From: a virus
Reading direction: 5' to 3' (one strand)
Length of the DNA stretch: 26,561 nucleotides
Virus record (IMG/VR): IMGVR_UViG_3300032236_000105
Coordinates: 1 to 26,561 of that record
A model generated the notes under the pieces. It ran no database searches. It was not told the DNA's origin and saw nothing but the letters and a program-made list of their open reading frames with translations. Each line of letters starts with the position of its first letter. The stretch's first letter is position 1. Shown here one piece after another: positions 9,455-25,819 of this stretch. The position numbers were made by a program, and so were the translations under genes.

Positions 9455-10168
9455 TCATAGGAATTTGGTATAATATTGTTCTAGTCTCTTGTACCATTGT
9501 TGGGTGTAGTTATCAAACTCATTACCCTCAATGATGAACTCTAGATATTGAGGTTTAGCCCATAGTCCATCCACAAGCTCAGGCTTGACGCACATAAAGA
9601 TTACTCCCTTGCGAATCTTTGTTCCATAGACTTCGTTATGAGCCAATGCATATGCTGCGGTCTGAACAAAGTAATCGTCAATCCATTCGCGCTTCTTAGG
9701 TTTATTGGACTGCTTGTGGTCCATGATAGCTTCAGCACCTTCATGTACTCCGCACAAGTCTGTAGTCCCTGCGTATATTTCAGGGAAGTATAGTGAGACT
9801 TCAGTACCCCAAAACTCATCACATTTAGTTAGACCTTGCTCAATGATCTGAGTAGCCATCAGATGGCTTTGCTGACTGTAAGGATTGCTACCGGGCTCGC
9901 TGCGCTTATCTTCTTTGATGAAGTCTTCAATCCACTTGTGCATACGAGTACCGCGACCCGCCGCTTCAGTGGTGATTTCTTGCGCTTTCTTGTACCCGAC
10001 TCGCTTACGCCAGTCTGCTAAGGCTTGTTTTGATTCTTCTGATTTAGTTGCTTCTAGAATCGTAGTCACACTAGGAACTTTGAATCCGTCGGGCGTGACA
10101 TACTTGCGTGAACCGTCTATACTAGTTTTGCTTAGTTGTTGATAGGGATACTTGTTTGTTATTGCCAT
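9455..10168 (-). CDS. PD-(D/E)XK exonuclease, RecB/Cas4/MGME1-like
   Basis: All core motifs of the PD-(D/E)XK exonuclease fold are visible in order: SVTTIL near residue 33, RGTRMH (72-77), a glutamate in GTEVSL (E123), YAGTTD (D137), IMDHK (D150 and K152), and Q169 with Y173 in VQTAAYA. This is the arrangement of the RecB-like, MGME1-type single-strand exonucleases found in many phages. Length, 237 residues, is normal. A role in recombination or end processing during replication is likely; in T4 that role belongs to other enzymes. It is alone in its unit, with its own sigma70-like promoter whose -10 box is 5 bases before the ATG and no ribosome site. That places an early-type gene between two late units. 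Confidence 0.85.
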   Translation of the reverse strand: MAITNKYPYQQLSKTSIDGSRKYVTPDGFKVPSVTTILEATKSEESKQALADWRKRVGYKKAQEITTEAAGRGTRMHKWIEDFIKEDKRSEPGSNPYSQQSHLMATQIIEQGLTKCDEFWGTEVSLYFPEIYAGTTDLCGVHEGAEAIMDHKQSNKPKKREWIDDYFVQTAAYALAHNEVYGTKIRKGVIFMCVKPELVDGLWAKPQYLEFIIEGNEFDNYTQQWYKRLEQYYTKFL

Positions 10169-10173
10169 ACGTT

Positions 10174-10201
10174 ACTATAACAGAACTAGTTAAAGAGTCA
10201 A
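10174..10201 (-). promoter_or_regulatory. Sigma70-like promoter, leaderless exonuclease gene
   Basis: Minus strand TTGACT (10196-10201), 16 bases, TATAGT (10174-10179), then 5 bases to the ATG at 10168. Each box differs from consensus at one base. Transcription should begin at or next to the A of ATG. Confidence 0.75.
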
Positions 10202-10210
10202 CTGAATTGG

Positions 10211-10543
10211 TTAAATCTTCATTGCGTGTTTAGCCATATTCGCAACAGTCTTGTCGTTGTCAGGTGTGGGACCTTTGGTTACTGTATCTTCTTTTTGACC
10301 TTTGAATACTACTCGGTCACCTTGAATATTTTTAATTAAGTCTTTGAGAGGAGGAACCTTGATCATGTTGTATAGATCATTGACATCTAGAATAACGTCA
10401 TAATGTTGGAAGTAATCCAACAGTTGATCTACAGTATAATCGTCTCCGATGTTACCGTCATCCAAATCAGTTTTTAACTGATTTGAAAGTGCAACGAGTT
10501 TTGCTGTAGTGACATTATCGTCATCAAATTCAAAGAGACGCAT
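10211..10543 (-). CDS. Conserved phage protein, unknown function (110 residues)
   Basis: The protein begins MRLFEFDDD and has a middle segment PPLKDLIKNIQGDRVVFKG, a combination I recall from small proteins in T4-like phages of aquatic and soil bacteria, with a C-terminal basic AKHAMKI. It is acidic in the first half. No enzymatic motif is visible. It starts 2 bases after the stop of the 234-residue gene and would be made late from the promoter at 11276-11283, so a head- or virion-associated role is an inference. Confidence 0.75.
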   Translation of the reverse strand: MRLFEFDDDNVTTAKLVALSNQLKTDLDDGNIGDDYTVDQLLDYFQHYDVILDVNDLYNMIKVPPLKDLIKNIQGDRVVFKGQKEDTVTKGPTPDNDKTVANMAKHAMKI

Positions 10544-10545
10544 TA

Positions 10546-11250
10546 TTATCTCTTTGCGCGGCCAACACTACCTGTCTGCATACCCATGTCTTCTTCCGGA
10601 GCAGGTGGGAGTTCTTCTTCCGGAGCAGGTGGAAGATCAGCCATTGCTGCTGCGTCTGCATCTGCTGCTGCATCTACGTCCATTGCATCTTCTGCACCAG
10701 CGAGGTCAGCACCGAAGCCAGGACCTGATTGACCAGTGATACTGTTCAATGCAGTCTGTAGGGTGTTCTTAGTTTCTAATAGAGCAGCGTTAAGGGTAGA
10801 GAGCGAACCTGAAACTTGACTGTTGAATGTAGTGCTTTCGTTAGCACCGATTTCTGACTGAATTGAATCAACAAGAGCAGGAAGTTCCTTAACGAGCATG
10901 TCGTTAACTTCTTCATACATCTTCTGAATTGAATCAACCATATCCTGAGCAGCTAGAATGACCTGTGACTTTTCTACTTCTTCATTCTCAAAAACGATAC
11001 GAGGAGTCTTGATAGTGCGAAGATGCTGAGTGAGAGCTTGTTCCATGAACAATGCTTTCAGATATGAAGGATTGTTCTGAGTTTCATAGAAGTTAGGCGA
11101 CTTCTTTGATTCTCTGATCAAATTAGTTACCTTCTGAAGCATAGCACGAGTCTTTGCTCCGTCCAATACAGATACGTCAACTCCAAAGGAGAAGTTTTCT
11201 TTTAGCGCCTTTGCTGCAACGTTCTTATTTTCTAAATCATTAAGTTTCAT
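10546..11250 (-). CDS. Putative prohead core or head-associated protein
   Basis: A helical 234-residue protein. Residues about 90-165 contain VILAAQDMVDSIQKMYEEV and ELPALVDSIQSEIG, a pattern I recall from structural-region proteins of large T4-like phages. The last 60 residues are rich in Ala, Asp, Glu and Pro, with a doubled unit LPPAPEEE/LPPAPEED, and the end is basic (GRAKR). Helical, acidic-tailed, late-expressed proteins fit scaffolding or prohead core roles, but no assignment to gp22, gp67 or gp68 can be made from sequence alone. A late promoter lies 26 bases upstream and GGAAGAG precedes the ATG by six bases. Confidence 0.7.
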   Translation of the reverse strand: MKLNDLENKNVAAKALKENFSFGVDVSVLDGAKTRAMLQKVTNLIRESKKSPNFYETQNNPSYLKALFMEQALTQHLRTIKTPRIVFENEEVEKSQVILAAQDMVDSIQKMYEEVNDMLVKELPALVDSIQSEIGANESTTFNSQVSGSLSTLNAALLETKNTLQTALNSITGQSGPGFGADLAGAEDAMDVDAAADADAAAMADLPPAPEEELPPAPEEDMGMQTGSVGRAKR

Positions 11251-11275
11251 GGTTAGCTCTTCCGTTTTGATTAAG

Positions 11276-11283
11276 TATTTATC
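11276..11283 (-). promoter_or_regulatory. Late promoter overlapping an upstream stop codon
   Basis: Minus strand GATAAATA. The TGA stop of the 160-residue gene (11282-11284) is part of the motif (TGATAAATA), so the promoter uses coding-end bases. It serves the 234- and 110-residue genes. Confidence 0.65.
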
Positions 11284-11764
11284 ACAGACTTCTAAATTTT
11301 GTCTGGTTGGTTTGACTAAATTTCCTAGCCTGTATCATCTTAGAACTATTTATGTAAGTTTTGATTTCATCTAGTATTTGTCGTTTTTTAATGGTGTCTT
11401 CTTGCAGCTTGATTACATAAATCCATTTGGAATCCCGGTCAGCATGTCTGCGTAACATGTTTCGGTGAACTAATAAATCAGTATCAATACTAGACAATTT
11501 CATGTCTAGTACTTCTATCTTGCCAGCTTCTCTGTGGTTACCGGCATGATGTAAAGTACACCAAGCTACTGCATTACGCATAGATTCAAACTCAAGAGAA
11601 ATGTCTTTACCAAAGACCTTAAATAAACCTCGTCTAGTAGGTACAATAGTGTACTTCCCAAACAAAGAATGTCTACCGTTCTGTTCACGGGTTATCAGAA
11701 CTTCTTTAAGATCAGACCGTAGTTCGTTTTCAAAAAATTGATCTAGCTTGACTTCAGTTTTCAT
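11282..11764 (-). CDS. Conserved phage protein, unknown function (160 residues)
   Basis: Unrecognised enzyme or structure, but the layout HSLFGKYTIVPTRRGLFKVF, then MRNAVAWCTLHHAG, then a helical half containing IDTDLLVHRNMLRRH and a last segment EIKTYINSSKMIQARKF is familiar from proteins near head genes of aquatic T4-like phages. Late transcription from 12213-12220 and the neighbouring genes suggest a virion assembly role. Start and upstream stop overlap as TAATG, implying coupled translation with the gene before it. Confidence 0.72.
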   Translation of the reverse strand: MKTEVKLDQFFENELRSDLKEVLITREQNGRHSLFGKYTIVPTRRGLFKVFGKDISLEFESMRNAVAWCTLHHAGNHREAGKIEVLDMKLSSIDTDLLVHRNMLRRHADRDSKWIYVIKLQEDTIKKRQILDEIKTYINSSKMIQARKFSQTNQTKFRSL

Positions 11765-12207
11765 TACATTACCTCAAAATAAATGTTCTTTAATTCTGCT
11801 GTAGTATCCATAAACGCAGGTAAACCACTTATTTGATTTGGACAAAGTATCATTGGAACACCTTTACAATCATTGTATAGTGCTGCTAATGACTCTGTTT
11901 CCCTATCAAATACGCTAGAGTGTTGAATCTCAAATTCAAACTTCCAGCAGTAACTAACTGTATCTTCTTTCGGAGTATATAAAAACCCAAACAAGTTAAA
12001 TTCATCTTCAGTCATTTCTATCTTAGTAGGAAATCTAACGACTTCGGGCTGAGAACGCATTGAGATAACTTGTAAAATTGTGTCAAAATTGCATTGCGTG
12101 TTTCGCTTATTTAGCCAACCTTCTATATCATCCTGATTTGGTTTGGAACGATTCATTACCCCTGTTTGGGTAATATCAAAAAGCGTGTAACAACATAAGC
12201 GATGCAT
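11764..12207 (-). CDS. Conserved phage protein, unknown function (147 residues)
   Basis: The opening CCYTLFDITQTGVMNR, the middle WLNKRNTQCNFDTILQVISMRSQ and the closing LKNIYFEVM match a protein I recall beside the 160-residue family in aquatic T4-like phages. No catalytic motif is visible. A longer reading frame with a TTG start at 12225 exists, but the late motif at 12213-12220 lies inside that extension, so the ATG at 12207 is preferred. That start is 5 bases from the motif and has no ribosome site, so its message would be nearly leaderless. Confidence 0.72.
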   Translation of the reverse strand: MHRLCCYTLFDITQTGVMNRSKPNQDDIEGWLNKRNTQCNFDTILQVISMRSQPEVVRFPTKIEMTEDEFNLFGFLYTPKEDTVSYCWKFEFEIQHSSVFDRETESLAALYNDCKGVPMILCPNQISGLPAFMDTTAELKNIYFEVM

Positions 12208-12212
12208 GTTAC

Positions 12213-12220
12213 TATTTAGA
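12213..12220 (-). promoter_or_regulatory. Late promoter, near-leaderless
   Basis: Minus strand TCTAAATA, one mismatch to TATAAATA, ends 5 bases before the ATG at 12207. It directly follows the terminator of the upstream gene. Confidence 0.6.
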
Positions 12221-12223
12221 GCC

Positions 12224-12254
12224 AAAAAAAACCCGGGAATTAAATCCCGGGTTT
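12224..12254 (-). terminator. Rho-independent terminator
   Basis: Minus strand stem AAACCCGGGA / TCCCGGGTTT with a 6-base loop (stem arms 12245-12254 and 12229-12238), followed by a run of T. It ends the single-gene unit 12683-12279. Confidence 0.9.
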
Positions 12255-12278
12255 CTCATGTTTTGCTTTCGCTAATTA

Positions 12279-12683
12279 TTAGTTAGTGAAAGTAGCAGTT
12301 GCGGAACCAGTTACTGCGTTAGCAACGCCAGCAGCAGTCAAACCTGTGCGAACAGCAGCTACAACGTTTGCGCCTGCTGAACCGTCTACTGACCATGCAC
12401 CAGTTGGGTAAACTGCGAATGCAATAGTGTCAGGACCTGCAGTAGTGAACTCATACATGTAAACAGTAGCCAACTGCTGAACAGTTTCAACGATTACGTT
12501 TACCTGAGCACCACTGAATGCGCCTGAGGAAGCTGCGGTGATCGTGAAGAAGTCGAGCTTTGGACCTTGTGGCTGAACAGTTGCGGCTGAAGTAACTGCG
12601 TTTAGACCAGTGTTCTGGTATGCTGGTGAGTCTAAGTGTAATACTGGCTTGAAATCACCATTTGTCTTTGTAAATTGTGCCAT
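12279..12683 (-). CDS. Small virion-type protein in its own unit (134 residues)
   Basis: A low-charge, Ala/Thr/Val-rich protein opening MAQFTKTNGDFKPVLHLDSPAY; I recall similar proteins in aquatic T4-like phages but not their function. The composition (beta-rich, few charged residues) fits a capsid decoration or tail protein. Its setting is telling: it alone lies between a late promoter (12729-12736) and a strong terminator (12224-12254), with a leader hairpin at 12706-12722 and a good AAGGAAA ribosome site. This points to a protein needed in large amount late in infection. Confidence 0.75.
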   Translation of the reverse strand: MAQFTKTNGDFKPVLHLDSPAYQNTGLNAVTSAATVQPQGPKLDFFTITAASSGAFSGAQVNVIVETVQQLATVYMYEFTTAGPDTIAFAVYPTGAWSVDGSAGANVVAAVRTGLTAAGVANAVTGSATATFTN

Positions 12684-12705
12684 TTTAATGTTTCCTTATA
12701 ATGTG

Positions 12706-12722
12706 TGAGCGTCTTCGGCTCA
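12706..12722 (-). promoter_or_regulatory. Leader hairpin, TGAGC/GCTCA
   Basis: A 5-base-pair stem with a 7-base loop in the leader of the 134-residue gene, between the late promoter and the ribosome site. It could stabilise the 5' end of the message; the stem is short, so chance pairing is possible. Confidence 0.4.
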
Positions 12723-12728
12723 TACAAT

Positions 12729-12736
12729 TATTTATG
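12729..12736 (-). promoter_or_regulatory. Late promoter of the 134-residue gene
   Basis: Minus strand CATAAATA in the gap between the 390- and 134-residue genes, in the same GCATAAATAA context as the fibre operon promoter. It predicts a leader of about 40 bases. Confidence 0.7.
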
Positions 12737-12769
12737 CCAGGACGAAAAAAAGTCGGTTTTGGTCAACTT

Positions 12770-13942
12770 CTATGAACGTTTTGGGAAACCTGCAAGAGGT
12801 TGTGTAGCGAATCTACCTGCTCCCGGTTGAGCTGGCTGACCTGCTGCGGGTGCTGCGGTCGGGGGAGTTTGCTGAGGCAAAGCATTAGCGATACCAGGAG
12901 GAGTTACCTTAGATACACTTGCAATAGCAAACATTGCATTAGCAAGTGCTATTAGAGCCTTTCTTGGGCTATTCGGATTTGCTGCGACGGCTTGAACTAA
13001 AGGTTCAATTTGAGCTTTCTTATCATGCCATTCAGTTGGACCCATGTACTTGTCAAGCCAAGCATTTAAGAAGTCAGCAACGCCCATTGCGTTTGGATTG
13101 GCTGGAGCCGGTTGCTTCTTGCCGAATCCCAAAAATTCATTAACATTTACGATGCTTTCAAATACTTGATCTAGCTTTCGGTATTCCTCAGTTGCAACCG
13201 GAATCGGCATACAGCGACTGAGGAATACACCGGAGTTACCTGCACTCTCGTAGAGACGGACACGAAGTCCTAAGTTGTCCCACGTTAACCCATGCTCTCT
13301 TAGCATGTTAGTGATAGCGCGATATACGCTCTGAGTCAAGAATCTTTCACCTGCTTTGCTACTTGCGTTCCAAGTAGGAGCTAGCTTGCTTACATCATAT
13401 CCGGCAGCAGCAAACTTAAGAATTTTGTTCGCTGCAAATATTCCGCTTTCTTTATCACCTTTAGCTAACTTAGCCATATCATTATTCAGTTCCGCAGCCA
13501 TCTTAGCAGGAAGAGCCTTAGCACCAGCCTGGGGTTGAAGTTGACGCATTTGACCTTTGATATTTTCATAAGGATCAGTTGCTGCTGCATTCTGTCCTGC
13601 AGGGGCGGCCTTAGGGGCGCCGGCTGGGGTAGCAGCCGCTCCCGGTGCAGCGCCCGGTGCAGCGCCAGCTCCTGGTTCAGCAGGCGAGTCTCCTCCGGGA
13701 TTTGTAGTCGGAGTAGTACCTGTATTAGGATTAATTACACCTGTCTGAAGACCGGTAGTAAGAGAAGCCAACGCATCACCTACGAAGTCTTTAATGAAAA
13801 TGTTTTTAGCTAGTTGAGCTTTAGTAGTCATGCCAGGCTTAAACATGCTCTGCAATCCAGCAGCACCATAGTCACCGATCAACGCATCTAGAAAACCTTC
13901 GTTGATTTCAGGTTTCGGACTTTTGAATTCATTAATCTTCAT
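12770..13942 (-). CDS. Ala/Pro-rich late protein, unknown function (390 residues)
   Basis: Two low-complexity linkers, one at about residues 80-118 (AGAAPGAAPGAAATPAG type) and one near the C-terminus (QQTPPTAAPAAGQ type), separate globular parts. The central part includes FLTQSVYRAITNMLREHG and LGLRVRLYESAGNSGVF; a second helical part follows (ADFLNAWLDKYMG). The N-terminal segment KINEF...FLDALIGDYGAAGL resembles the start of phage proteins of unknown role. It overlaps the 81-residue gene by 11 bases and has AGGAAG four bases before the ATG. It is expressed late by position; a head-interior or scaffold role is a guess. Confidence 0.7.
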   Translation of the reverse strand: MKINEFKSPKPEINEGFLDALIGDYGAAGLQSMFKPGMTTKAQLAKNIFIKDFVGDALASLTTGLQTGVINPNTGTTPTTNPGGDSPAEPGAGAAPGAAPGAAATPAGAPKAAPAGQNAAATDPYENIKGQMRQLQPQAGAKALPAKMAAELNNDMAKLAKGDKESGIFAANKILKFAAAGYDVSKLAPTWNASSKAGERFLTQSVYRAITNMLREHGLTWDNLGLRVRLYESAGNSGVFLSRCMPIPVATEEYRKLDQVFESIVNVNEFLGFGKKQPAPANPNAMGVADFLNAWLDKYMGPTEWHDKKAQIEPLVQAVAANPNSPRKALIALANAMFAIASVSKVTPPGIANALPQQTPPTAAPAAGQPAQPGAGRFATQPLAGFPKRS

Positions 13943-14177
13943 TTTTCTTCCTTAGGCTTTTTGCGAATCTTGTCTGATCCTTACTTTTGATCGCACTCAG
14001 GAGCTTTCTTTCAAGAATCTCAGCCTTTTCGGAAGGGTAATGTTTTTGCATCAACTCAATCAGATAGATGGCGCTGGCAATCACATTGGATGCGCGATTC
14101 TCAATAACATGTGAAATGTCACGAGTGTCGCCATACGCTTGTAGTTCTTCTAAAAGGCTCTTAGTCTTTCTTTGCAT
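13932..14177 (-). CDS. Conserved small phage protein, unknown function (81 residues)
   Basis: Helical and basic, with KSLLEELQAYGDTRDISHVIENRASNVI pattern recalled from small proteins of T4-like phages (LLEEL, then HVIE-RA near residue 24). No catalytic motif. It is the first gene of a two-gene late unit with the 390-residue protein, behind a late motif at 14199-14206. Confidence 0.72.
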   Translation of the reverse strand: MQRKTKSLLEELQAYGDTRDISHVIENRASNVIASAIYLIELMQKHYPSEKAEILERKLLSAIKSKDQTRFAKSLRKKNED

Positions 14178-14198
14178 AGTGTAAGGATCCTATAGTGT

Positions 14199-14206
14199 TA
14201 TTTAGT
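14199..14206 (-). promoter_or_regulatory. Probable late promoter
   Basis: Minus strand ACTAAATA, located in the 43-base gap between the helicase stop and the 81-residue gene. The identical octamer occurs on the plus strand before the gene at 17516. Confidence 0.55.
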
Positions 14207-14220
14207 CTAAGAACTTAAAA

Positions 14221-15624
14221 TTATTTCTTTAGAGAGTTTAACAAAGACTTGAGTTTAGCAGATTGTGCGTCTGCTACTACTGGTCTTTCTGTCTGATCAA
14301 TTGTATTTTGTACAGCACTATTTACCGATCCTACTTGACTTGTTGTCTTGATTTTATCCATGATCTGACTAGGAGTAGCTTGCTTTGGTTCATCTTCTCC
14401 ACCTTCATCTGTGATACGCATAGTCTCAATGTTATAGTCCAAATCAACTTTCATCCCAACACCAGTAGAACTACGAGACTTCATACACTGAATCTGATAC
14501 TTACCGCGTTCACGCATAGACCTAGAAGTAAAGATACCGAACACATAGTCAGCAGTATTGATCTTAGAAATACCACCTGCGATATGACTATGATCAAACT
14601 CAATTTCTTCAACAGCAGAACGATTTAACTGTGATGCAGTGATCATCAGAACACCCAGTTCCTTTGCAAGATTACGCAATTCTTCTGAAACATATTTGTC
14701 TTTGATAAACTGATCGCTGGGATTGACCTTGATACTGACTGGCATGACAAGATCAAGATAGTCAATCATCACGAAGTCAATCTTGATTCCTGTCTGAATC
14801 TGCACTTCTTTGATGTATGCCCGAATTGCATTCACGTTAGACTGTGCGGGTAGACCCTTCACACGATACTGACCCATCTTCTTGCCAGCCATCTTGACCT
14901 TGAGTTCAGCATCGTCAAGATTTTTACGAATGTCCTTCGTACTCATGCTCGTGAGCATGGCGTCAGTACGCAGAGAAGTCAGTTCTTCTGAAAGTTCAAG
15001 AGTCACATAGACACCACTAAGGCCCTGACTGAGCCAATTAAGTGCGATATTCATCATGACTAGAGACTTACCAGAACCAGAACCACCAGCGAAGATATTC
15101 AATTCTCCGCGACTCATCCCACCATACATGACACGATCAAGCTGGGGCCAACCCGTAGACACCTGTCCTCCCTGATTGAAATACTTGTTCAGTCGTTCCT
15201 TAGGATCAGCGAAATAGTCTGTCCCCATGTCACGTTGTAACGAGATTTGCACAGCATCTTTGATTAGCTTTTCAACTGGATCAAACTCTCCCTTCTCAAG
15301 TAAGTCTGCTGCTTTGAGAATAGCCCGTTCGAGTTCCTGACGTTTAGTAAACTGTTCAAATTCTTCTAAGAACCAATCATAATGTCCTTCGTCAAGCTCA
15401 GGAATATTTTCAACATCAACGCCAGTTGTAGCTTTGATTTGAATTGGGTCGGGCATAATACTATACTTCGTAGTATGCTCTATCATGAACTCTGCTACTG
15501 GTCGCAAAGTTCTATCAAAATTTTCTGCATTCATGATGTTCATAACACGAGTATACAACTCTGCATTAGTTACCATCATTCGCAAGAATAAAGCCTGTAC
15601 GTCTGTATTATATTCTTTTATCAA
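14221..15624 (-). CDS. Replicative DNA helicase, gp41/DnaB-like
   Basis: A RecA-type hexameric helicase that would unwind the replication fork together with the primase encoded just before it. Walker A is GGSGSGKS at residues 180-187, Walker B is FVMIDYLDL with D288, and LMITASQLNRSA follows as the sensor-like motif; the N-terminal third matches the small gp41/DnaB N-domain. Length (467) is close to T4 gp41 (475). The only start that keeps the N-terminal EYNTDVQALFLRMM segment is a TTG at 15624, which overlaps the primase end by 17 bases, so translation is probably coupled and held down by the weak start. The C-terminal 60 residues are Gln/Ser/Lys-rich and less conserved. Confidence 0.92.
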   Translation of the reverse strand: MIKEYNTDVQALFLRMMVTNAELYTRVMNIMNAENFDRTLRPVAEFMIEHTTKYSIMPDPIQIKATTGVDVENIPELDEGHYDWFLEEFEQFTKRQELERAILKAADLLEKGEFDPVEKLIKDAVQISLQRDMGTDYFADPKERLNKYFNQGGQVSTGWPQLDRVMYGGMSRGELNIFAGGSGSGKSLVMMNIALNWLSQGLSGVYVTLELSEELTSLRTDAMLTSMSTKDIRKNLDDAELKVKMAGKKMGQYRVKGLPAQSNVNAIRAYIKEVQIQTGIKIDFVMIDYLDLVMPVSIKVNPSDQFIKDKYVSEELRNLAKELGVLMITASQLNRSAVEEIEFDHSHIAGGISKINTADYVFGIFTSRSMRERGKYQIQCMKSRSSTGVGMKVDLDYNIETMRITDEGGEDEPKQATPSQIMDKIKTTSQVGSVNSAVQNTIDQTERPVVADAQSAKLKSLLNSLKK

Positions 15625-16579
15625 GTTTTGTCCTCGCCATTTGAATCTTAATCTTACTATTTGTTGCTGAGTGAAGTATACTTAGTAGCGTCGGAAGTCG
15701 CCCGTATTTTACTACAGCGTCATTAACGTCTTTTACATCCGGTCCCCAATCGGGCAAACTTACTTGAAATCCTAATTCCAAAGCCTGATCGCATATTGCT
15801 AATCCTGTCTTGTCTTGATCAGGCACAACAATGATAGTCTTATTTAGGTTTCTCAGTAAATCAACTTGTGTATCACCTATTGTGTTAGTAGTCAACGCAC
15901 ACCCATTGATACTCAGAGCATCAAATATGCCTTCTACTACGATACAGCAATGCCACTCTGGCTTCTGAAAGTCATAGCCAAAAAGATAACCAGACTGCTG
16001 TTCACTTATAAACTTCGGAGTGCGATTATCTAGATATCTGCTAGTGTTGCCTACAATCTTGTTATTGAAGGTAAAAGGTATGATAACCCTATTAGAGTTT
16101 CTACCCTCTTCATACGGAGTTACCATGTATGGATAATCAGCGTAGTTCAACCCACGTGCTGCTAGATAGTCAATGAACACCTTATGATCAGGATTATTCA
16201 CATCTATAAAATCAGCTTCTGGCAGAGGTACTTCGTCAAACTTGACCTTCTTCTTTTGCTTTATTACCCTAGTCAAATCTAGCAAGTCTTTATGTTGCAG
16301 ACTCTCTAGATTCCATTTGTTTACCTGACTCTCATCTATGCCAAGCCAATTCAACAGCATCTTGGTGTTGCTAGTAAGCTGTCTACCTAAGGTGAAGCCG
16401 CACTTGAAGTTACAGTTGAAGCAATGATAAGACCAGTTTTCTCCGTTTGATTTAACCCCGCCGCGCATACGCTTGTCTTGTTTATGTCCACGGTGATGGC
16501 AGCACGGAGCGTTGAAACTAGTCCAACCGCTACTAGTGTGCTTCTTCTTTCCCGGAATAATAGACAGGATGTCAAACAT
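15608..16579 (-). CDS. DNA primase, gp61-like
   Basis: An N-terminal zinc-binding part has Cys and His around residues 26-32 (CCHHRGH) paired with CFNC at 53-56. A TOPRIM catalytic domain follows: VVEGIFDALS with E216, VVPDQDKTG with D254 and D256, and DVKDVNDA near 281. Together these are the elements of a phage primase making RNA primers at the fork. The 323-residue length is close to T4 gp61 (342). It is first in a two-gene early unit with the gp41-like helicase, its natural partner. The ATG lies 6 bases after the -10 box, so the message should be leaderless. Confidence 0.9.
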   Translation of the reverse strand: MFDILSIIPGKKKHTSSGWTSFNAPCCHHRGHKQDKRMRGGVKSNGENWSYHCFNCNFKCGFTLGRQLTSNTKMLLNWLGIDESQVNKWNLESLQHKDLLDLTRVIKQKKKVKFDEVPLPEADFIDVNNPDHKVFIDYLAARGLNYADYPYMVTPYEEGRNSNRVIIPFTFNNKIVGNTSRYLDNRTPKFISEQQSGYLFGYDFQKPEWHCCIVVEGIFDALSINGCALTTNTIGDTQVDLLRNLNKTIIVVPDQDKTGLAICDQALELGFQVSLPDWGPDVKDVNDAVVKYGRLPTLLSILHSATNSKIKIQMARTKLDKRI

Positions 16580-16585
16580 AAATCT

Positions 16586-16613
16586 ACTATAACATACCTG
16601 ATATAAAAATCAA
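16586..16613 (-). promoter_or_regulatory. Sigma70-like promoter, leaderless primase gene
   Basis: Minus strand TTGATT (16608-16613), 16 bases, TATAGT (16586-16591), then 6 bases to the ATG at 16579, placing the expected transcription start on the A of ATG. Confidence 0.72.
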
Positions 16614-16626
16614 GTGTTACGGTGAA

Positions 16627-17331: not shown

Positions 17332-17438
17332 GTATATCCTCGGTGAATTACCTGAAAGGAGAACAACAATTTGACGCTGCGTGTAGATGAAAACTTGTGT
17401 ACTGTAAGCCATGCAATGTTGCTATCCCTATTGTCTTG

Positions 17439-17446
17439 TATTTATC
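17439..17446 (-). promoter_or_regulatory. Late promoter of the structural gene at 17331
   Basis: Minus strand GATAAATA, one mismatch to the T4 consensus, in the 103-base divergent gap. With the plus-strand motif at 17499-17506 it makes a second divergent late promoter pair, like that at 37-101. Confidence 0.65.
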
Positions 17447-17498
17447 ATCCTAGCACATCTTCAAGCCTAATATTAAATATTCAATTTGGTTTTCCAAA

Positions 17499-17506: not shown

Positions 17507-17515
17507 AACTAAGAT

Positions 17516-17893
17516 ATGAGCAACGAATTTTTTAGAAAACTTGGTGAGAATCACCCTTTCATTTCTATCTGTTCCTATGCCAGTCAAGACTATGTAGGTA
17601 TAATTCAAAACCGAGACGATCTAGTAACTACTATGTACGATTACGGTGCTATTGTCCCTGCTGATCTTAAGGCTAAGTTCTTAGAATTGGGGGAGGTATG
17701 GTGGTGGGAATCAAATAGAACCATTCCCATTAATTTGTTTCTAAAAGAAGAATGGGCTATATTTAAGCCCTTCATCAGAACTTTCAACAACAAGAGTCTA
17801 GATATACTTCACGGCCCAGTCGTTAGCATGACTGACTTCACTAAAAAGCGAACAAAGCGAAGATCAATTACTCTAGTTAAGCGGATGCCCTAG
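17516..17893 (+). CDS. Conserved phage protein, unknown function (125 residues)
   Basis: Recalled as a family of aquatic T4-like phages from the sequence SICSYASQDYVGIIQN near residue 17, FLELGEVWWWESNRTIPINLFLK in the middle, and the basic end KKRTKRRSITLVK. No catalytic motif is visible. It is the only plus-strand gene in a long minus-strand stretch, has its own late motif and no clear ribosome site. Its last 17 bases overlap the end of the deformylase gene on the other strand, so both coding sequences share those bases. Confidence 0.78.
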   Translation: MSNEFFRKLGENHPFISICSYASQDYVGIIQNRDDLVTTMYDYGAIVPADLKAKFLELGEVWWWESNRTIPINLFLKEEWAIFKPFIRTFNNKSLDILHGPVVSMTDFTKKRTKRRSITLVKRMP

Positions 17894-18386
17894 ACTTCTT
17901 CTTTAATTCTTTCTTACGCTTTTCTTTAGCCATCATCAGAGTTGTGTCTCCGACCCGTTGATCAAACGTAATTCCCATTAGATGATCCAGCTCATGCAAA
18001 AATACACGAGCTTCCATTCCAGACAACTCACGCTCAACAACAGTACCTTCTGTATTGTGGTATTGAACCACACAAGAAGCCGGACGCTTGACTTTCATAT
18101 ACAAGTCAGGGAATGAAAGACACCCCTCAAGATCAGTCAATCTATCTTCTGATAGCGATACGATCATAGGATTGATGCAAGCTACAAACTTAGTAAAGTT
18201 CCCCATAGTGAAGATGCGCTTCTTGATGCCAACCTGTGGTGCAGCAAGGCCAACTCCACCGTTAGCAGTCATAAATTTTGCCATCTCTGTGATGAGTTCA
18301 GTTGGGTCTCCGTCAATCTCAAAGTCCCATGGTGTTGTCACTTCTAGTAATTGCGGGTCGTTCTCTTTGAGTAGTGCTAAGTTCAT
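17877..18386 (-). CDS. def: Peptide deformylase
   Basis: All three deformylase motifs are present: GVGLAAPQVG (44-53), EGCLS (87-91, metal ligand C89) and HELDH (131-135, ligands H131 and H135, catalytic E132). The enzyme removes the formyl group from N-terminal methionine of new proteins in the cytoplasm. The 169-residue length is like bacterial Def; the C-terminus ends in a lysine-rich tail. Phage deformylases are known in aquatic T4-like phages, where they may speed processing of phage or host photosystem or other proteins. Last gene of the 23278-17877 operon, joined to the preceding gene by an ATGA overlap, with AAGGAA five bases before the ATG. Confidence 0.95.
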   Translation of the reverse strand: MNLALLKENDPQLLEVTTPWDFEIDGDPTELITEMAKFMTANGGVGLAAPQVGIKKRIFTMGNFTKFVACINPMIVSLSEDRLTDLEGCLSFPDLYMKVKRPASCVVQYHNTEGTVVERELSGMEARVFLHELDHLMGITFDQRVGDTTLMMAKEKRKKELKKKSRASA

Positions 18387-20488: not shown

Positions 20489-20762
20489 ATAGCTTCCAAT
20501 GCACGTAAGTCTTTTCGTCTAGTACAATATATCCAGACACTTTGAACCAGTTACCAAGGTATTTTGGTTCCTTATATCGTTCACGACACCACTTCTCTAG
20601 TTCACCGGGACCGTAGCGGTCTGAACCAATAGGAATACGAATGAAAATCCTATCTTCCCATTCGTGTCCAACTTGAATCTTCTTCTTGATCTTCTGAACT
20701 TGTGGCACTACGTCAATAATTTCTTCTTGATAGGGCACTAGCCCCATAGCAGCCTGAACCAT
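20481..20762 (-). CDS. Hypothetical operon protein (93 residues)
   Basis: Not recognised. Contains a charged middle (QKIKKKIQVGHEWEDRIFIRIP) and an aromatic end (WFKVSGYIVLDEKTYVHWKLCE), looking like a small alpha/beta fold with no catalytic motif. AAGGA lies six bases before the ATG, supporting this start even though it overlaps the upstream gene by 25 bases. Confidence 0.68.
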   Translation of the reverse strand: MVQAAMGLVPYQEEIIDVVPQVQKIKKKIQVGHEWEDRIFIRIPIGSDRYGPGELEKWCRERYKEPKYLGNWFKVSGYIVLDEKTYVHWKLCE

Positions 20763-20977
20763 ATAAAATCCTTTTCGTATCTAAACTTGTAGTGTAGATC
20801 ATTGCCACTGTAATACCATCTACAATGATACTCACATTTGCCTATATTGTCTCGTATCCAGTTGACAATCTCTGCATGTCGTTTGATAGTCTTAGCCGGA
20901 TCAGGTTCGTAAATATGAACCTCATACCAACCCGGCTTAGTTAATTCCCAACCGTTCTTTGAGTCATAGTGATTCAT
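20738..20977 (-). CDS. Hypothetical operon protein (79 residues)
   Basis: Not recognised. Rich in Tyr, Trp and His (KPGWYEVHIYEPD, CEYHCRWYYSGNDLHYKFRYEKDFIWF), a composition like small nucleic-acid or protein binding folds, but no motif. Its C-terminal pattern of aromatic residues resembles the neighbour at 20481, so the two could be diverged copies; this is weak. Start and upstream stop overlap as TAATG. Confidence 0.66.
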   Translation of the reverse strand: MNHYDSKNGWELTKPGWYEVHIYEPDPAKTIKRHAEIVNWIRDNIGKCEYHCRWYYSGNDLHYKFRYEKDFIWFRLLWG

Positions 20978-21678
20978 TAATATCCAGCTTGTTTTAGCAA
21001 CTCTTTAACTTGTTTGACAACATTTACATCACGCTTGAACTTGATAGCCCACTGTTCTGGATTGATGTAGTCTAGAATTATCTTCTGCTGTGACTCGTCT
21101 AAGTCTTCAATCAACTTGATTCCGCTCTCACTATGATACAACATCCAAGGGCTGATCTTACCTGCGGTGATTAAATATACCAAACGATTTCTGTTTGCAT
21201 AACGCAGACAGTCTTTTGTTTCAATGCCTGCTGCCTTTGCAAGTTCAATTGTGTTCTCAATACTACGAGCAACAGCATCCATTGGATCTTCATCCTTTAG
21301 ATGCTGAATGAGAAACTTGGTGTAGTTCGTATCACTACACCAGCTATCAATCTTCACGTTGTTCTTAAGCAACCAGTCAGCATAGCGATTGACATTCAAA
21401 CAATGAATGTTCACACAGTAATGTCCGAACTTGACGAACGCAATGTAATACGCTGACTTGCTAAAGTCAAGGTATGTCTTCTGCTTTTTAGTTGCAGTAT
21501 TCTTTGCGTAGAAGCGAAGCCATGACTGAAAGCCGATGCGGTTACCTGGCAAATCTTTATCTTGCCAGCGGCGCTTGTTCTCGCACAGATGCTTCATCAT
21601 GGTTGTCTCACGCTGAAACGATCTGTTGCAAAACTCGCAACTAAATTCTGAGGGCTTAATTGCCCCAGTCTTCTTCAT
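20977..21678 (-). CDS. Zinc-finger phage protein, conserved, unknown function
   Basis: The N-terminus has a single C2HC-type finger, C14, C17, H30 and C32 (CEFCNRSFQRETTMMKHLC). A helical body follows with YYIAFVKFGHYC near residue 76, DSWCSDTNYTKFLIQHLKDEDPMDAVARS, YANRNRLVYLITAGKISPWMLYHSESG, and QWAIKFKRD. I recall this architecture from aquatic T4-like phages, where some annotations link it to baseplate-hub genes, but no function is established that I know of. A GTG at 21711 would add 11 residues and enlarge the overlap with the upstream gene to 56 bases; the ATG at 21678 is preferred. Confidence 0.75.
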   Translation of the reverse strand: MKKTGAIKPSEFSCEFCNRSFQRETTMMKHLCENKRRWQDKDLPGNRIGFQSWLRFYAKNTATKKQKTYLDFSKSAYYIAFVKFGHYCVNIHCLNVNRYADWLLKNNVKIDSWCSDTNYTKFLIQHLKDEDPMDAVARSIENTIELAKAAGIETKDCLRYANRNRLVYLITAGKISPWMLYHSESGIKLIEDLDESQQKIILDYINPEQWAIKFKRDVNVVKQVKELLKQAGY

Positions 21679-22243
21679 ACTGTCTAATATCTTCGTCTGT
21701 AGTAAGGTCACTTAACAACTCAATCTCATCAAATTTTAACTCGGGAAACTTCTTAGCAAGATACATCTTTTTCTTGTGATTGTCAATGAACACTTCACTG
21801 AGAAGGGTTATATCACCGTCGTTAGTTTTAGGATATACCTTCTTGAAGTATTCCTTGATTTCTTTCTGCTTCGGACTATCAAGCAAACGAGAAACACGTT
21901 CACGGATATGCGGGATCCACTGATGAAACTGCTTACCAATACCTGGACTTGCAGCGCATAGCATCAGCCATTGTAGCTTGGGATGCTTCTGCACGTTTTC
22001 ATTAAACAGATACTTATTAGCGTGGTACTCAGTGCTTTGAAGATAGTATGACTGAACGTCCGAACTAGCTTTCACCGCACTGATCCAATGCAACATCATG
22101 AACGGCACAAACTTCTTCTGCTGTTCAGGAGTCAATCTATCATAGTACGAGTAGTCTTTCTTGTCTATAGCCGTTAGGGCGTCAAACAAGTCAAAGTCTT
22201 GACCTGTGAACTTTTCGTCTGCTGATAGTTTCTCTTTAGCCAT
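21656..22243 (-). CDS. Possible clamp-loader small subunit, gp62-like
   Basis: A helical 195-residue protein. Its segments DALTAIDKKDYSYYDRL, KKFVPFMMLHWIS, HPKLQWLMLCAASPGIGKQFHQWI can be laid beside T4 gp62 (187 residues) with similar order, spacing and length: an N-terminal helix, a YSKFMVENALS-like stretch, then the loop before a GKxxxxW segment. If so it joins gp44 in loading the sliding clamp at the fork. The match is by eye, and the downstream zinc-finger gene gives no direct support; a different phage-specific protein remains possible. Confidence 0.5.
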   Translation of the reverse strand: MAKEKLSADEKFTGQDFDLFDALTAIDKKDYSYYDRLTPEQQKKFVPFMMLHWISAVKASSDVQSYYLQSTEYHANKYLFNENVQKHPKLQWLMLCAASPGIGKQFHQWIPHIRERVSRLLDSPKQKEIKEYFKKVYPKTNDGDITLLSEVFIDNHKKKMYLAKKFPELKFDEIELLSDLTTDEDIRQYEEDWGN

Positions 22244-22647
22244 TAAGAGCGCAACGCTTCCAAAGTGATAAGGTGTTCAACAGTCTTGCCCAACTCATTC
22301 AAGTCAGTAATGATAGTGAGACTAGGACCGTCATTATCTTTATAGCGTTCTTGTTTGGAATGTTCAATGATCCATCCACCCGAAGCAGGATAGATAGCGA
22401 ATCGCACACTTGACTTCGGCGTAGGAGTATCAGCATCTCGTACTGCTACCAATTCTGTGCTATTGCGACTCTTTTCCCATGCTTCACGAGACCACTGTGC
22501 AAACTTTCTCTTAAACCATCCCATCTTCTTTTCCTTCTTTATATTACCTGTAAAACTATCTACATTAATTCTAAACACACCATTGCTGGGTGCAGCACTA
22601 GCCATAGTTCTAGCATATGATGCTTGACCGATACTTCCGTTAGACAT
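22243..22647 (-). CDS. Conserved phage protein, unknown function (134 residues)
   Basis: A disordered N-terminus is followed by GWFKRKFAQWSREAWEKSR near residue 43, an amphipathic basic-aromatic helix, then a beta-rich part (SVRFAIYPASGGWIIEHSKQERYK) and a closing helix ELGKTVEHLITLEALRS. I recall this combination in small proteins of aquatic T4-like phages; function unknown. The ATG is separated by a single base from the stop of the 38-residue gene, and its stop overlaps the next ATG (TAATG). Confidence 0.75.
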   Translation of the reverse strand: MSNGSIGQASYARTMASAAPSNGVFRINVDSFTGNIKKEKKMGWFKRKFAQWSREAWEKSRNSTELVAVRDADTPTPKSSVRFAIYPASGGWIIEHSKQERYKDNDGPSLTIITDLNELGKTVEHLITLEALRS

Positions 22648-22648
22648 A

Positions 22649-22765
22649 TTATTTTTTCTTAGTTACAGTGATTTTAATGTTTGGATACAGTGTGCGTACT
22701 ACACCCATAACATCTGACTGCTTATTGTTCTTCTTGAAAGTCTTGATATCTGCTTCTTTAATCAT
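22649..22765 (-). CDS. 38-residue basic microprotein
   Basis: A short reading frame fills the gap between two operon genes almost exactly: it begins 12 bases after the upstream stop and ends one base before the next ATG. GAGGGA lies seven bases before its ATG. The product (MIKEADIKTFKKNNKQSD..., ending KITVTKKK) has 11 lysines and is probably folded as a helix and strand. No homologue is recognised. The tight fit and ribosome site argue that it is translated. Confidence 0.65.
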   Translation of the reverse strand: MIKEADIKTFKKNNKQSDVMGVVRTLYPNIKITVTKKK

Positions 22766-22777
22766 CGTTCTGTCCCT

Positions 22778-23278
22778 CTAAAACACTTGATTGTAGTCTA
22801 CGACTTCACAATTCCTACTGATCTCTTTGACAAAGTAAACACATCTAGGCTTCTCACCGTCATCAATAGGAACACAAAGAAACTGTCCATTACGAAGTCT
22901 TGGGGCATACCAAGTAACGTCTGGATAGATATCTAAAATCTCAATTGGTAAAAACGTAGGAGAGAACGAACTCAAAGGATTAAACTGGAACGCATTAAAA
23001 CCTCTGTCATTAAGACTAGAAAGTGGGAGCGTTTCAAGATCACCGTGTTCTTGCTCTCCTATGAGTATCTGCCAATCTACTGGCATCTTAATAGTCTTGT
23101 TACCAATTCTAAGAACAAGAGCCGGACTGTTAAACGATTCCAAAAAGATCAGAGGGATATAATGATAGTCAACATTTGCGGGTGTTGAGTTATCAAGAAT
23201 AGCGAACCGAAGATCATCTATTTCTTCTGGTAACGTTTCTAAGTTGTAATAGGTATTTTCAAGGGTTAAAATTCTCAT
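22778..23278 (-). CDS. Highly conserved phage protein, unknown function (166 residues)
   Basis: The stretches VDYHYIPLIFLESFNSPALVL, MPVDWQILIGE, LPLSSLNDRGFNAFQFNPLSSF and DIYPDVTWYAPRLRNGQFLCVP match a protein I recall as strongly conserved among T4-like phages of aquatic and soil bacteria, often near uvsW; no function is known to me. No catalytic motif can be named. First gene of the 12-gene early operon, behind a sigma70-like promoter whose -10 box is 6 bases before the ATG. Confidence 0.8.
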   Translation of the reverse strand: MRILTLENTYYNLETLPEEIDDLRFAILDNSTPANVDYHYIPLIFLESFNSPALVLRIGNKTIKMPVDWQILIGEQEHGDLETLPLSSLNDRGFNAFQFNPLSSFSPTFLPIEILDIYPDVTWYAPRLRNGQFLCVPIDDGEKPRCVYFVKEISRNCEVVDYNQVF

Positions 23279-23284
23279 AGTGTG

Positions 23285-23313
23285 ATCATAGCTTTTCTGT
23301 TGTAAAAAGTCAA
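23285..23313 (-). promoter_or_regulatory. Sigma70-like promoter, leaderless operon start
   Basis: Minus strand TTGACT (23308-23313), the ideal 17-base spacer, TATGAT (23285-23290), then 6 bases to the ATG at 23278. It fills the gap between the UvsW stop and the 166-residue gene. Expected start point is the A of ATG. Confidence 0.8.
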
Positions 23314-23317
23314 CACC

Positions 23318-24775
23318 TTAATAGTCCAATTTCTCCAAAGTGAATGGATAGTTGGCCTCTTTATAAAATGCTTTTCTTTGTGTTAGGTGTCTCTTTGCGA
23401 ACTTGCAAGTGCTAGTGATATCCCAGATTTCTACATGGTCCTTGTCTTCGGCTTTTCTGATTCCTCGTCCAATGCTCTGAATAACTCTTACAAAAGATTT
23501 ACCTGGCTCAATAAGAACCAAATTAAAGATGCGAGGAATATTAATTCCCACGGCTGCGACACCATAAGTTGCCACAATGATCTTATCATCGCTTGTAGCG
23601 ACTTCATCGTACTCTTCCTTTCGCTCAGTCAGTTTTGTGCCTCCGTTAACAAACACAGAGCCTGGCATTCTACTGACTAATTCTTTACCTGCATTCACCC
23701 GATCCACAAGCACAAGGGTATTGCCGGTCTCGTTGACTTTTAGAATGAGTTCAGCCATCTTATCTAGACGATGAGTATCTTCTAACAAATGCTTTAATTC
23801 ACTCTGATAGTTGGTGAACTCTACCGTATCCTTAAGCTGAACAATATTCACATGACACTTAGCAAGCACACCGCGCTCTTGCAATTCAGATGCTGCTAGC
23901 TTACCGATAACAGGACCAAGTGAAACAAGAAGGGATACACGGTCCATCTCTGCCTTTGGAATTGTACCAGTCAGTCCCCAGCGAATAGGAACGTATGACA
24001 GAACGCCAGTGAGCAAAGTCTTCAATACCTCAGCCTTAGCCATATGTACTTCATCAACGATAACACAGCCAATGCCGTCAAAGAAAGATTCTGCTAGTTC
24101 AGGATCACCGTCGTCTTCCTTTGAACCCTTGAGAAGATTATTGAGAGACTGCCAGGTGCAGATAGTATGAGTCTTTCCGTAATCCTTGCGATCACCGAAG
24201 TATACCCCTACATCAAGACCGAGATTGATATAGTCTGCTTCTGTCTGAACGACTAGAGACTTATTAGGGACGATCACAAGCGATCTGCCATACGGTTCTG
24301 CACACAGTGATAGTGCAGCAGTCATAACAGTCTTACCTGCCCCTGTAGCAATCTCTTGCAACGCCTGTGGATTAGCTAGAAAGTTATTGATGATTTCTAT
24401 CTGATAGTCACGCAGAACGACAGGCTGTCCTTCTCGCTCGTGTCCTTTCGGCCAGCAGATGTGAGAGAACGTATCTTCGGTTACCTGTTCAAACTTGAGT
24501 TCAGCACGGGGAGGGCGCAGGTCGTGTAGATCAATATCATATCCCTTGTCATAGAGATAAGGAATGATACCATCTAGTAGATTAAGATACGTGCTGCCTG
24601 CTAACGAGAAATAACTGATCTTGCCGTTCCAACGTCCTAAACGCACTGCCGGAAGATATCTTGCTCCTGGCTTCTCGTACTCAAACATCTTCATCAATGC
24701 ACGACGATCACCTACTTCTAGGCCCTCAATCTTTATGTTGACTTCATCTTTAATTATAATCTTTGCTTCGTTCAT
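23318..24775 (-). CDS. uvsW: UvsW-like DNA/RNA helicase
   Basis: A superfamily 2 helicase with ATGAGKT (143-149), DEVH (241-244), LTGT (268-271) and a final QSIGRGIRKA near residue 435. The 90-residue N-terminal domain with FEYEKPGARYLPAVRLGRWNGKISYF is the UvsW-type substrate-binding part, so both halves of the enzyme are present; length 485 is close to T4 UvsW (503). T4 UvsW unwinds R-loops and moves branched DNA, shifting replication from origin-dependent to recombination-dependent mode. It overlaps the 337-residue gene by 4 bases (ATGA) and shares its promoter. Confidence 0.93.
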   Translation of the reverse strand: MNEAKIIIKDEVNIKIEGLEVGDRRALMKMFEYEKPGARYLPAVRLGRWNGKISYFSLAGSTYLNLLDGIIPYLYDKGYDIDLHDLRPPRAELKFEQVTEDTFSHICWPKGHEREGQPVVLRDYQIEIINNFLANPQALQEIATGAGKTVMTAALSLCAEPYGRSLVIVPNKSLVVQTEADYINLGLDVGVYFGDRKDYGKTHTICTWQSLNNLLKGSKEDDGDPELAESFFDGIGCVIVDEVHMAKAEVLKTLLTGVLSYVPIRWGLTGTIPKAEMDRVSLLVSLGPVIGKLAASELQERGVLAKCHVNIVQLKDTVEFTNYQSELKHLLEDTHRLDKMAELILKVNETGNTLVLVDRVNAGKELVSRMPGSVFVNGGTKLTERKEEYDEVATSDDKIIVATYGVAAVGINIPRIFNLVLIEPGKSFVRVIQSIGRGIRKAEDKDHVEIWDITSTCKFAKRHLTQRKAFYKEANYPFTLEKLDY

Positions 24776-25785
24776 TTGACCTCTACTGGTCGTGAATTCT
24801 TCAGCACGACAATTTTATCAATATTGTGATTTACGTAAGTATTTAAGCGAGTGTTTAAGTGGCTATGAGTTTGTAGTAAGAAGGACCTAGGCTGAATCGG
24901 ACTGTCTCGCGTAGTATTATAACTTGATGCCGGCACAATAGTCATACCGACTAGTATGTTTTCAATCTCGGATCGCAGTTTCTTGTCTGCGGATAGTGTC
25001 CTGTCTAAGATGACCCGTTGAACTTTAAGCATCCTCATCCATGCTGCTACTTGAGTAAGGTTGTCTATATCAACTTCTGTTTGATACTCATATGCAAACT
25101 TTAATTTAGGGTCATTCCCGTAAAAATTAGAATGCACAGGTAACTGAAACCCAGCCAATTTGTAAAGGTTGTCTGCGGATATCGTCAAATCAATATTGCT
25201 GATCAGTTCTGCAACAACAGGATTAGCTGCACCTAACAGGATTCTACCGTTGATGTTCATCAACGTAGGCTCCCAAATCAAACCCTCATACGGTTTCAAG
25301 TCTTCTAGTATGCTGCTCAATGTCTCGCAGTAATTTATAACTGTGAAGAATTTGGGTAGAAAGTTGTACAGCAACTTAAATGCAAGTGTACTGAATGGTG
25401 CCCTGTACAACTTTTCTTCCTTAATCCATTGAAAAGGATTGTCATCAAGAGTACGAAAGGCAGAAATAAAATTCTTATTGAACGGGACACGTACAGTGAT
25501 AACATCATCAAACAGATACACATTTGCACCCGTGTATTCAGGTGTGCTTTGTACAACCATTGACTTCCAAGGAAGTACCTTAAGTTCTTCCTTTACTAAA
25601 GCAGCCTTAGACAACTGCTTTGCATACTTACTGATCAGCTTATCAAACAACTCAGCCTGATTGGAAGTTACACGGTGTGAATTATGAATCATCGTTTGAA
25701 GATTCACCATGAACTTATAGTCGTACTGACTTAAGCTAATCTTTCCTTGCAGGAAGAAGTAGAGAAGGTGTTCTTTGCAATCCAT
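24772..25785 (-). CDS. HARP-like domain protein paired with UvsW
   Basis: Not a helicase: no Walker motifs. Residues about 89-147 (YLFDDVITVRVPFNKNFISAF, then FQWIKEEKLYRAPFSTLAFKLLYNFLPKFF) resemble the HARP fold of SMARCAL1-type annealing helicases, where it binds branched DNA. The N-terminal 60 residues (ISLSQYDYKFMVNLQTM, TSNQAELFDKLISKYAKQL) are helical. The gene is first in a two-gene unit with uvsW and overlaps it by 4 bases, which suggests a functional partner that guides UvsW-like fork or branch remodelling. The HARP call is from pattern reading and is the main uncertainty. Leaderless promoter just upstream. Confidence 0.6.
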   Translation of the reverse strand: MDCKEHLLYFFLQGKISLSQYDYKFMVNLQTMIHNSHRVTSNQAELFDKLISKYAKQLSKAALVKEELKVLPWKSMVVQSTPEYTGANVYLFDDVITVRVPFNKNFISAFRTLDDNPFQWIKEEKLYRAPFSTLAFKLLYNFLPKFFTVINYCETLSSILEDLKPYEGLIWEPTLMNINGRILLGAANPVVAELISNIDLTISADNLYKLAGFQLPVHSNFYGNDPKLKFAYEYQTEVDIDNLTQVAAWMRMLKVQRVILDRTLSADKKLRSEIENILVGMTIVPASSYNTTRDSPIQPRSFLLQTHSHLNTRLNTYVNHNIDKIVVLKNSRPVEVK

Positions 25786-25790
25786 GTTTT

Positions 25791-25819
25791 ATCATAGCAC
25801 CGTATAGTAGATTTAGCAA
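25791..25819 (-). promoter_or_regulatory. Sigma70-like promoter, leaderless HARP-like gene
   Basis: Minus strand TTGCTA (25814-25819, weaker -35), 17 bases, TATGAT (25791-25796), then 5 bases to the ATG at 25785. It starts right after the terminator at 25830. Confidence 0.65.

Follow-up and report, generated by a model that had tools for sequence, protein, structure and literature searches.

Four genes on the minus strand of a 26,561-base fragment of virus record IMGVR_UViG_3300032236_000105 (the whole of which is called the window below) raise the question of whether their messages begin directly at the start codon: each has a sigma70-like promoter whose -10 box ends 5-6 bases before the ATG. 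The answer that we favour, and consider very likely, is that these genes belong to a lineage-wide strategy of leaderless expression in aquatic T4-type jumbo phages, one that draws on two promoter classes. The geometry, its conservation and exact spacing, the absence of Shine-Dalgarno (SD) sites and the absence of the trait from other T4-type phages are shown by the sequences; the transcription starts, the mode of translation and any benefit of the leaderless genes are inferred. The hexamers and spacings that a preliminary description of the window gave for four promoters, at the starts at 10168, 16579, 23278, and 25785, are all present:

10169..10201, minus strand: early promoter of the exonuclease gene, TTGACT (10201-10196), 16 bp, TG-extended TATAGT (10179-10174), 5 nt to the ATG; retained in relatives with their own promoter
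9455..10168, minus strand: Cas4/RecB-like exonuclease gene (phrog_298), no SD site, predicted leaderless
16580..16613, minus strand: early promoter of the primase gene, TTGATT (16613-16608), 16 bp, TG-extended TATAGT (16591-16586), 6 nt to the ATG
15608..16579, minus strand: DNA primase gene (phrog_47), predicted leaderless
23279..23313, minus strand: early promoter of the long operon, TTGACT (23313-23308), 17 bp, TATGAT (23290-23285), 6 nt to the ATG
22778..23278, minus strand: phrog_11279 gene, function unassigned, first in the long operon, predicted leaderless
25786..25819, minus strand: early promoter of the HARP-like/uvsW unit, TTGCTA (25819-25814), 17 bp, TG-extended TATGAT (25796-25791), 5 nt to the ATG
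24772..25785, minus strand: HARP-like gene (so named in the preliminary description; no PHROG or Pfam match), predicted leaderless
23318-24775, minus strand: uvsW, downstream of the HARP-like gene, with GAGG before its ATG

The claim that none of the four starts has an SD site was also borne out. The accompanying claim, that downstream genes of the same operons do have one, stands for the starts at 18386, 24775, and 22767 and fails for several coupled starts that overlap the previous stop codon without an SD site, for example 22243, 19800, and 20488. The extended -10 TG is found in three of the four promoters (10168, 16579, and 25785), and a terminator-like hairpin (25855-25836) precedes that of the HARP-like/uvsW unit. 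A strong promoter lies at a distance of 5-7 from 4 of the 31 gene starts in the window, whereas in 2000 trials with block-shuffled upstream regions the mean was 0.09 and no trial gave more than 2, so that at least four such genes were never obtained. A plain promoter scan of the window (51 promoter-like sites against 39 expected) is insufficient to reveal the pattern, because it is the distance to the ATG and not the number of promoters that is unusual. Together with the genome-wide spacing counts and the hexamer scan given below, the shuffles rule out a chance origin of the window geometry.

For the genome-wide counts we read four large relatives, G001-G004, which are metagenome records that may or may not be complete (most of each was read; ~400 kb of 525 kb for G003), with T4, 121Q, CBB, PA5oct, SCTP-2, S-PM2, and HTVC008M as controls, and took expected counts from positions 36-59. 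When sigma70-type promoters were scored at all distances, 10, 8, 21, and 13 genes in G001-G004, respectively, had one at a distance of 5-7 (expected 1.2, 2.5, 2.1, and 1.9), with a peak at 6, and no such excess was seen in T4, 121Q, CBB, PA5oct, SCTP-2, or S-PM2. The signal of the T4-type late promoter box TAAATA was larger: at a distance of 4-6 it was found before 23, 29, 50, and 37 genes (expected 3.2-4.5; P 6e-10 to 1e-35), with a peak at 5, and 129 of these 139 genes lack an SD site. T4, 121Q, CBB, PA5oct, and S-PM2 have no late-box excess at 4-6. Enrichment of the promoter-to-ATG spacing across genomes, which the preliminary description had proposed as a refutation test of its leaderless explanation, is therefore seen in all four large relatives, and that explanation is strengthened by the sharpness of the enrichment and by the conservation of the geometry. 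The late boxes are bimodal: they pile up at 4-6, are scarce at 7-15 and form a second group at 16-35 that is accompanied by SD sites; the control hexamers AATAAA, AAATAT, TATAAA, and AAAATT showed no spike at a distance of 5. Pattern counts in the aquatic records and 12 cultured phages mostly agree (28 vs 2 for the reversed pattern in G001 and 31 vs 6 in G002), but 121Q gave 6 vs 11.

A model-free hexamer scan agrees with the analyst-weighted promoter scoring. In the 717 genes of G001-G004 without an SD site, three hexamers were the most strongly position-specific upstream of the first ATG: TAAATA ended 5 before it in 55 cases vs 3.8, TTGACA ended 29 before it in 19 vs 0.5, and TATAAT ended 6 before it in 17 vs 0.9, the distance of 29 being that of a 17-bp spacer, the -10 box and 6. 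None of the three was found in the matching sets from T4, 121Q with CBB, S-PM2, or PA5oct, and the SD-led genes of G001-G004 gave ordinary SD hexamers. The early contexts have TTGACA-like and TATAAT-like hexamers 15-19 bp apart, as sigma70-type promoters do, and the late boxes are TATAAATA-like with no -35 box, as are T4-type late promoters. The base at -12 of the late boxes is A in 72% and C in 22% of cases, though it was not selected for, and no other base from -20 to -13 is strongly conserved.

The two peaks have a simple reading in terms of where transcription would begin. The sigma70 -10 hexamer spans -12 to -7, and a distance of 6 therefore sets +1 on the A of the ATG. The T4 late box spans -13 to -6 (PMC2988020), and a distance of 5 therefore does the same. 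That two unrelated promoter classes should each peak at their own canonical +1 is hard to explain by packing alone. Furthermore, the base at -1 is a pyrimidine in 84% of the late cases vs ~40% of SD-led starts (P 2e-12), and A at -1 is depleted in the early cases (29% vs 52%, P 4e-5). In bacteria, a TA-like box ~10 bp upstream marks leaderless genes (Zheng et al. 2011, PMC3160421), and G001-G004 and the window share two features of such TA-led genes, an excess of -10-like boxes at the distance that places +1 on the start codon and the lack of an SD site; the bacterial cases are chromosomal, whereas those described here are in phages and also involve a phage late-sigma box. The mapped leaders of Lactococcus cremoris avoid lengths of 4-14 nt (PMC10986495), a gap like the scarcity of aquatic phage late boxes at 7-15.

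Based on these observations, we propose that RNA polymerase would start on, or 1-2 nt from, the A of the start codon and so produce leaderless mRNAs. Early genes would be transcribed from host sigma70 promoters, often TG-extended, with ~6 nt from the -10 box to the ATG, and many late genes from T4-type late promoters (TAAATA) with ~5 nt to the ATG. Ribosomes would load directly on the 5'-terminal AUG or GUG, and downstream genes would be translated via coupling or SD sites; other promoters of the same genomes have ordinary leaders with SD sites.

The early geometry is found across hundreds of related aquatic metagenome loci, including nearly all of the primase relatives compared, some of them at ~65% protein identity. 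It is present in 75 of the 76 contexts of primase relatives, in 68 of 75 for phrog_11279 and in 46 of 50 for the HARP-like gene, in the last case down to ~30% protein identity. For the exonuclease the count is 32 of 67; its relatives in other contexts lack this promoter, and several have an SD site instead (e.g. L110, L139). What the relatives keep is the -10 box and its spacing from the start codon, whereas the spacer, the -35 box and the upstream sequence vary freely. Once near-identical contexts were removed, an SD motif (GGAG, GAGG or AGGA) was found in the SD region of none of the 143 early contexts, 88 of which have TG before the -10 box. At ~20 primase loci, in a subclade that includes L026-L030, L050, and L060-L066, GTG replaces ATG at the same position with the geometry kept, which would mean leaderless GUG initiation.

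A variant arrangement was observed at four phrog_11279 loci (L163:10001, L004:3196, L024:3020, and L032:1659), where the ATG is lost and AUU or CUG stands in its place, with an SD site. The sigma70 promoter of these loci still puts an ATG at a distance of 6, which opens a mini-ORF of 12-15 codons (ending in RGEVKFAS and a stop codon, or MKRHIGEKPCAS and a stop codon) that overlaps phrog_11279 in the -1 frame. From its sequence, this mini-ORF could be a leaderless leader peptide that acts through coupling or frameshifting.

The early-type families that have the geometry in at least two of G001-G004 include primase, phrog_11279, DnaJ, a DNA polymerase III alpha fragment, exonuclease, the HARP-like protein, dNMP kinase, 5'-3' exonuclease, and PP-loop ATPase, where 'early' is assigned from promoter type and gene function alone; SbcD has it in G004. 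There are 79 late-type leaderless families, of which 30 occur in at least two of these genomes. The preliminary description had suggested a rule for DNA-metabolism genes. The early set is indeed rich in replication and repair genes, but as a rule this fails in view of DnaJ, the proteins of unassigned function and the larger late set; a restriction to DNA-metabolism genes is ruled out, since late genes with the leaderless geometry are more numerous. In the window, too, the pattern is wider than the four early sites, with TAAATA 5 nt before the ATG of late genes at 107 (plus strand) and 12207 (minus strand):

96..101, plus strand: T4-type late promoter box TAAATA (GATAAATA), 5 nt before the ATG at 107
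107..1849, plus strand: late gene (MPRLSLYRPNKQNDY...), predicted leaderless; the family has the same geometry in 4/4 large relatives
12213..12218, minus strand: T4-type late promoter box TAAATA (TCTAAATA), 5 nt before the ATG at 12207
11764..12207, minus strand: late gene (MHRLCCYTLFDITQTG..., 147 aa), predicted leaderless; the family has leaderless geometry in 4/4 large relatives
12729..12734, minus strand: T4-type late promoter box TAAATA, 5 nt before the ATG of a 12-codon mini-ORF
12685..12723, minus strand: mini-ORF (MSRRRSHIIRKH and a stop codon) with leaderless geometry, ending just ahead of an SD-led structural gene that starts at 12683

The true start of the gene at 11764..12207 is probably the ATG at 12207 and not the upstream TTG.

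The nearest relatives of the window uvsW among cultured phages are those of the jumbo phages Phosso, PA5oct, and Atu_ph07, and the gene order uvsW - phrog_11279 - structural gene - primase - helicase is common to the window, Phosso, Atu_ph07, PA5oct, 121Q, SCTP-2, and Vibrio 2.275. Jumbo phages of the RaK2/121Q/PA5oct/Atu_ph07 type thus share the uvsW-to-helicase order, and several have an early promoter before the primase. In 121Q, CBB, and Kaldavass this promoter has the same TG-extended -10 box, and the leader after it is ~27-32 nt long and contains an SD site; RaK2 has a similar promoter and an SD-containing leader, and the Vibrio 2.275 primase also has a leader with an SD site, a promoter being recognisable ahead of the leader in four of these five phages. 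Among the jumbo phages compared, only PA5oct (TATAAT-6-GTG) and SCTP-2 (TAGCAT-6-ATG) have leaderless primase geometry. In both, the leaderless start (L307 7891, plus strand, and L309 ~12256, plus strand, respectively) differs from the annotated one and fits the conserved N-terminus or the promoter spacing better. On sequence grounds these two primases look mis-started in their records, probably because start selection expects an SD site, and they illustrate what leaderless genes would mean for annotation.

Among cultured phages, the late part of the pattern also occurs in the SAR11 phage HTVC008M (Pelagibacter phage, Kyanoviridae), whose genome is smaller than those of the aquatic jumbo relatives and which shares with them the late boxes at a distance of 5 from the ATGs of structural genes (11 vs 1.5 expected). 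About a dozen of its ORFs of at least 50 codons have a late box exactly 5 nt from the ATG (L403-L410), most of these boxes being followed by G (TAAATAG). For sigma70-type early promoters, any enrichment in this phage is not clear (4 vs 1.4, P 0.05). The late boxes of the aquatic phages resemble T4 late promoters (TATAAATA, gp55-dependent; PMC2988020) in their TAAATA core, in mostly having A at -12 and in lacking a -35 box. However, in T4 most of the boxes stand 16-35 nt upstream of the ATG and are separated from it by an SD site, whereas many of the aquatic ones are at 4-6 nt without an SD site, and C is tolerated at -12, unlike in T4. As a precedent, AR9 is ruled out by its leaders of 26-491 nt (PMC5312081).

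A single-gene case is known from phage lambda. The cI mRNA from PRM is leaderless, with a sigma70-type -10 box ~6 nt before the 5'-terminal AUG and no SD site. Whereas this is one repressor gene of a temperate phage, each genome of the aquatic T4-type phages has dozens of such genes, early and late. Two of the papers cited here mention lambda and cI (PMC3160421, PMC9031893). Outside a few bacterial phyla, leaderless translation is usually regarded as rare and as something of a relic, and leaderless messages are rare among well-studied phages; here they would constitute a conserved expression mode of aquatic phages that is served by two promoter classes unrelated to each other and exists alongside SD sites in the same genomes. 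Because related phages have orthologues of one gene that differ in whether a leader is present, what leaderless initiation costs and what it gains can be tested directly, and HTVC008M, a cultured marine relative, makes the prediction itself testable.

Several points weigh against leaderless expression as we propose it. The relatives share ancestry, and gene counts are therefore not independent events; gene starts came from a simple ORF caller, and the weights and thresholds of the promoter score were chosen by us. The pyrimidine preference at -1 is weak at early promoters (52% vs 40%, P 0.04), and some promoters lie at distances of 4, 7, or 8, which may mean leaders of 1-3 nt for some genes. 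No transcriptome of these phages was found in the library of papers that was searched. One could suppose that compaction alone is responsible, small gaps having pushed promoters towards genes, with loose transcription starts, translated messages that mostly read through from upstream RNA, and a spacing without function. Phage genomes are tight, and several of the promoters do sit at or inside the end of the preceding gene. Yet compaction predicts a broad range of short distances and not sharp, class-specific peaks at 6 and 5 with few boxes at 7-15; 121Q, CBB, and RaK2 have the same gene order and nonetheless ~27-32 nt leaders with SD sites at the primase; and SD sites are absent exactly where the promoter adjoins the ATG. 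We therefore think compaction a poor candidate, with little chance of being the whole explanation. It is less probable still, to the point of being barely credible, that the starts are misassigned, that is, that the real start codons lie downstream behind SD sites and the promoter-proximal ATG falls within a 5' untranslated region. In the fast-evolving HARP-like family, a simple count reveals no clear coding constraint on codons 2-9, as this would predict. Given that codon differences over the same stretch are mostly synonymous in primase (56%) and phrog_11279 (63%), that ATG is swapped for GTG at the same position in the ~20 primase loci, and that the ten leaderless ATGs of HTVC008M between 6280 and 49760 all match the annotated starts of structural and other genes, we do not believe that the starts have been misplaced.

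Why the leaderless genes should have arisen is a separate matter. The hosts may simply translate leaderless mRNAs well and the phages match them, with no translation programme specific to infection, an explanation to which we give slightly less than an even chance. It concerns why the trait evolved, and it is not in competition with leaderless transcription. The trait tracks phage groups, and probably their hosts, and not gene family: the enterobacterial relatives lack it, the aquatic group has it, and so does the SAR11 phage as far as late promoters are concerned. Leaderless genes exceed 20% in some bacterial phyla (PMC3160421) and make up ~13% in Lactococcus cremoris (PMC10986495), both of which we count in favour of host matching. 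Against it, a scan of bacterial genomes for the primase found no relative and so gave no host for the aquatic jumbo phages, and the same phages keep many SD-led genes; therefore their host evidently uses SD sites too. The preliminary description had instead suggested that ribosomes altered during infection favour leaderless messages, or that such messages resist host control acting through leaders. An advantage during infection could also come from a change in initiator tRNA. One tRNA-Met(cat) in each of G001, G002, and G004 does have acceptor ends that look, by eye, like those of an initiator (C1 opposite A72), and leaderless translation rises strongly when there is more initiator tRNA (PMC9031893). 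However, initiator-like tRNAs also occur in PA5oct, SCTP-2, and CBB, which lack the genome-wide trait, the distribution of phage bS21 does not follow that of the trait, and the trait is not bound to one phase, early and late genes both being leaderless. We regard such an advantage as unlikely, and matching to the host seems the likelier reason. A fuller version, in which both promoter classes are tuned gene by gene to start on AUG as part of a phage-wide programme linked to a change in how translation starts in infected cells, perhaps with the help of a phage initiator tRNA, is offered tentatively, as we doubt that it holds.

Two candidate correlates of the trait were rejected. Initiator-like tRNAs fail as a marker because they are found in genomes with the trait but also in PA5oct, SCTP-2, and CBB. 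As a cause, phage bS21 shows no correlation: it is present in G003, G004, PA5oct, and SCTP-2, the last two largely without the trait, and absent from G001 and G002, which have it. G003 has two bS21 copies, and that of G004 has a ClpX-like gene on its upstream side and Hsp20-like and ClpS-like ORFs on its downstream side (named by eye). G001, G002, and G004 have 28-43 tRNA genes each.

Two further genes of the window were recognised by eye. The ORF at 17877-18386 (minus strand), within the long early operon, resembles a peptide deformylase (GLAAPQVG, EGCLSFP, and HELDH motifs), which is of interest because that enzyme acts on formyl-methionine ends. The ORF at 3204-3644 (plus strand) contains a Nudix-box-like sequence and resembles a Nudix hydrolase.

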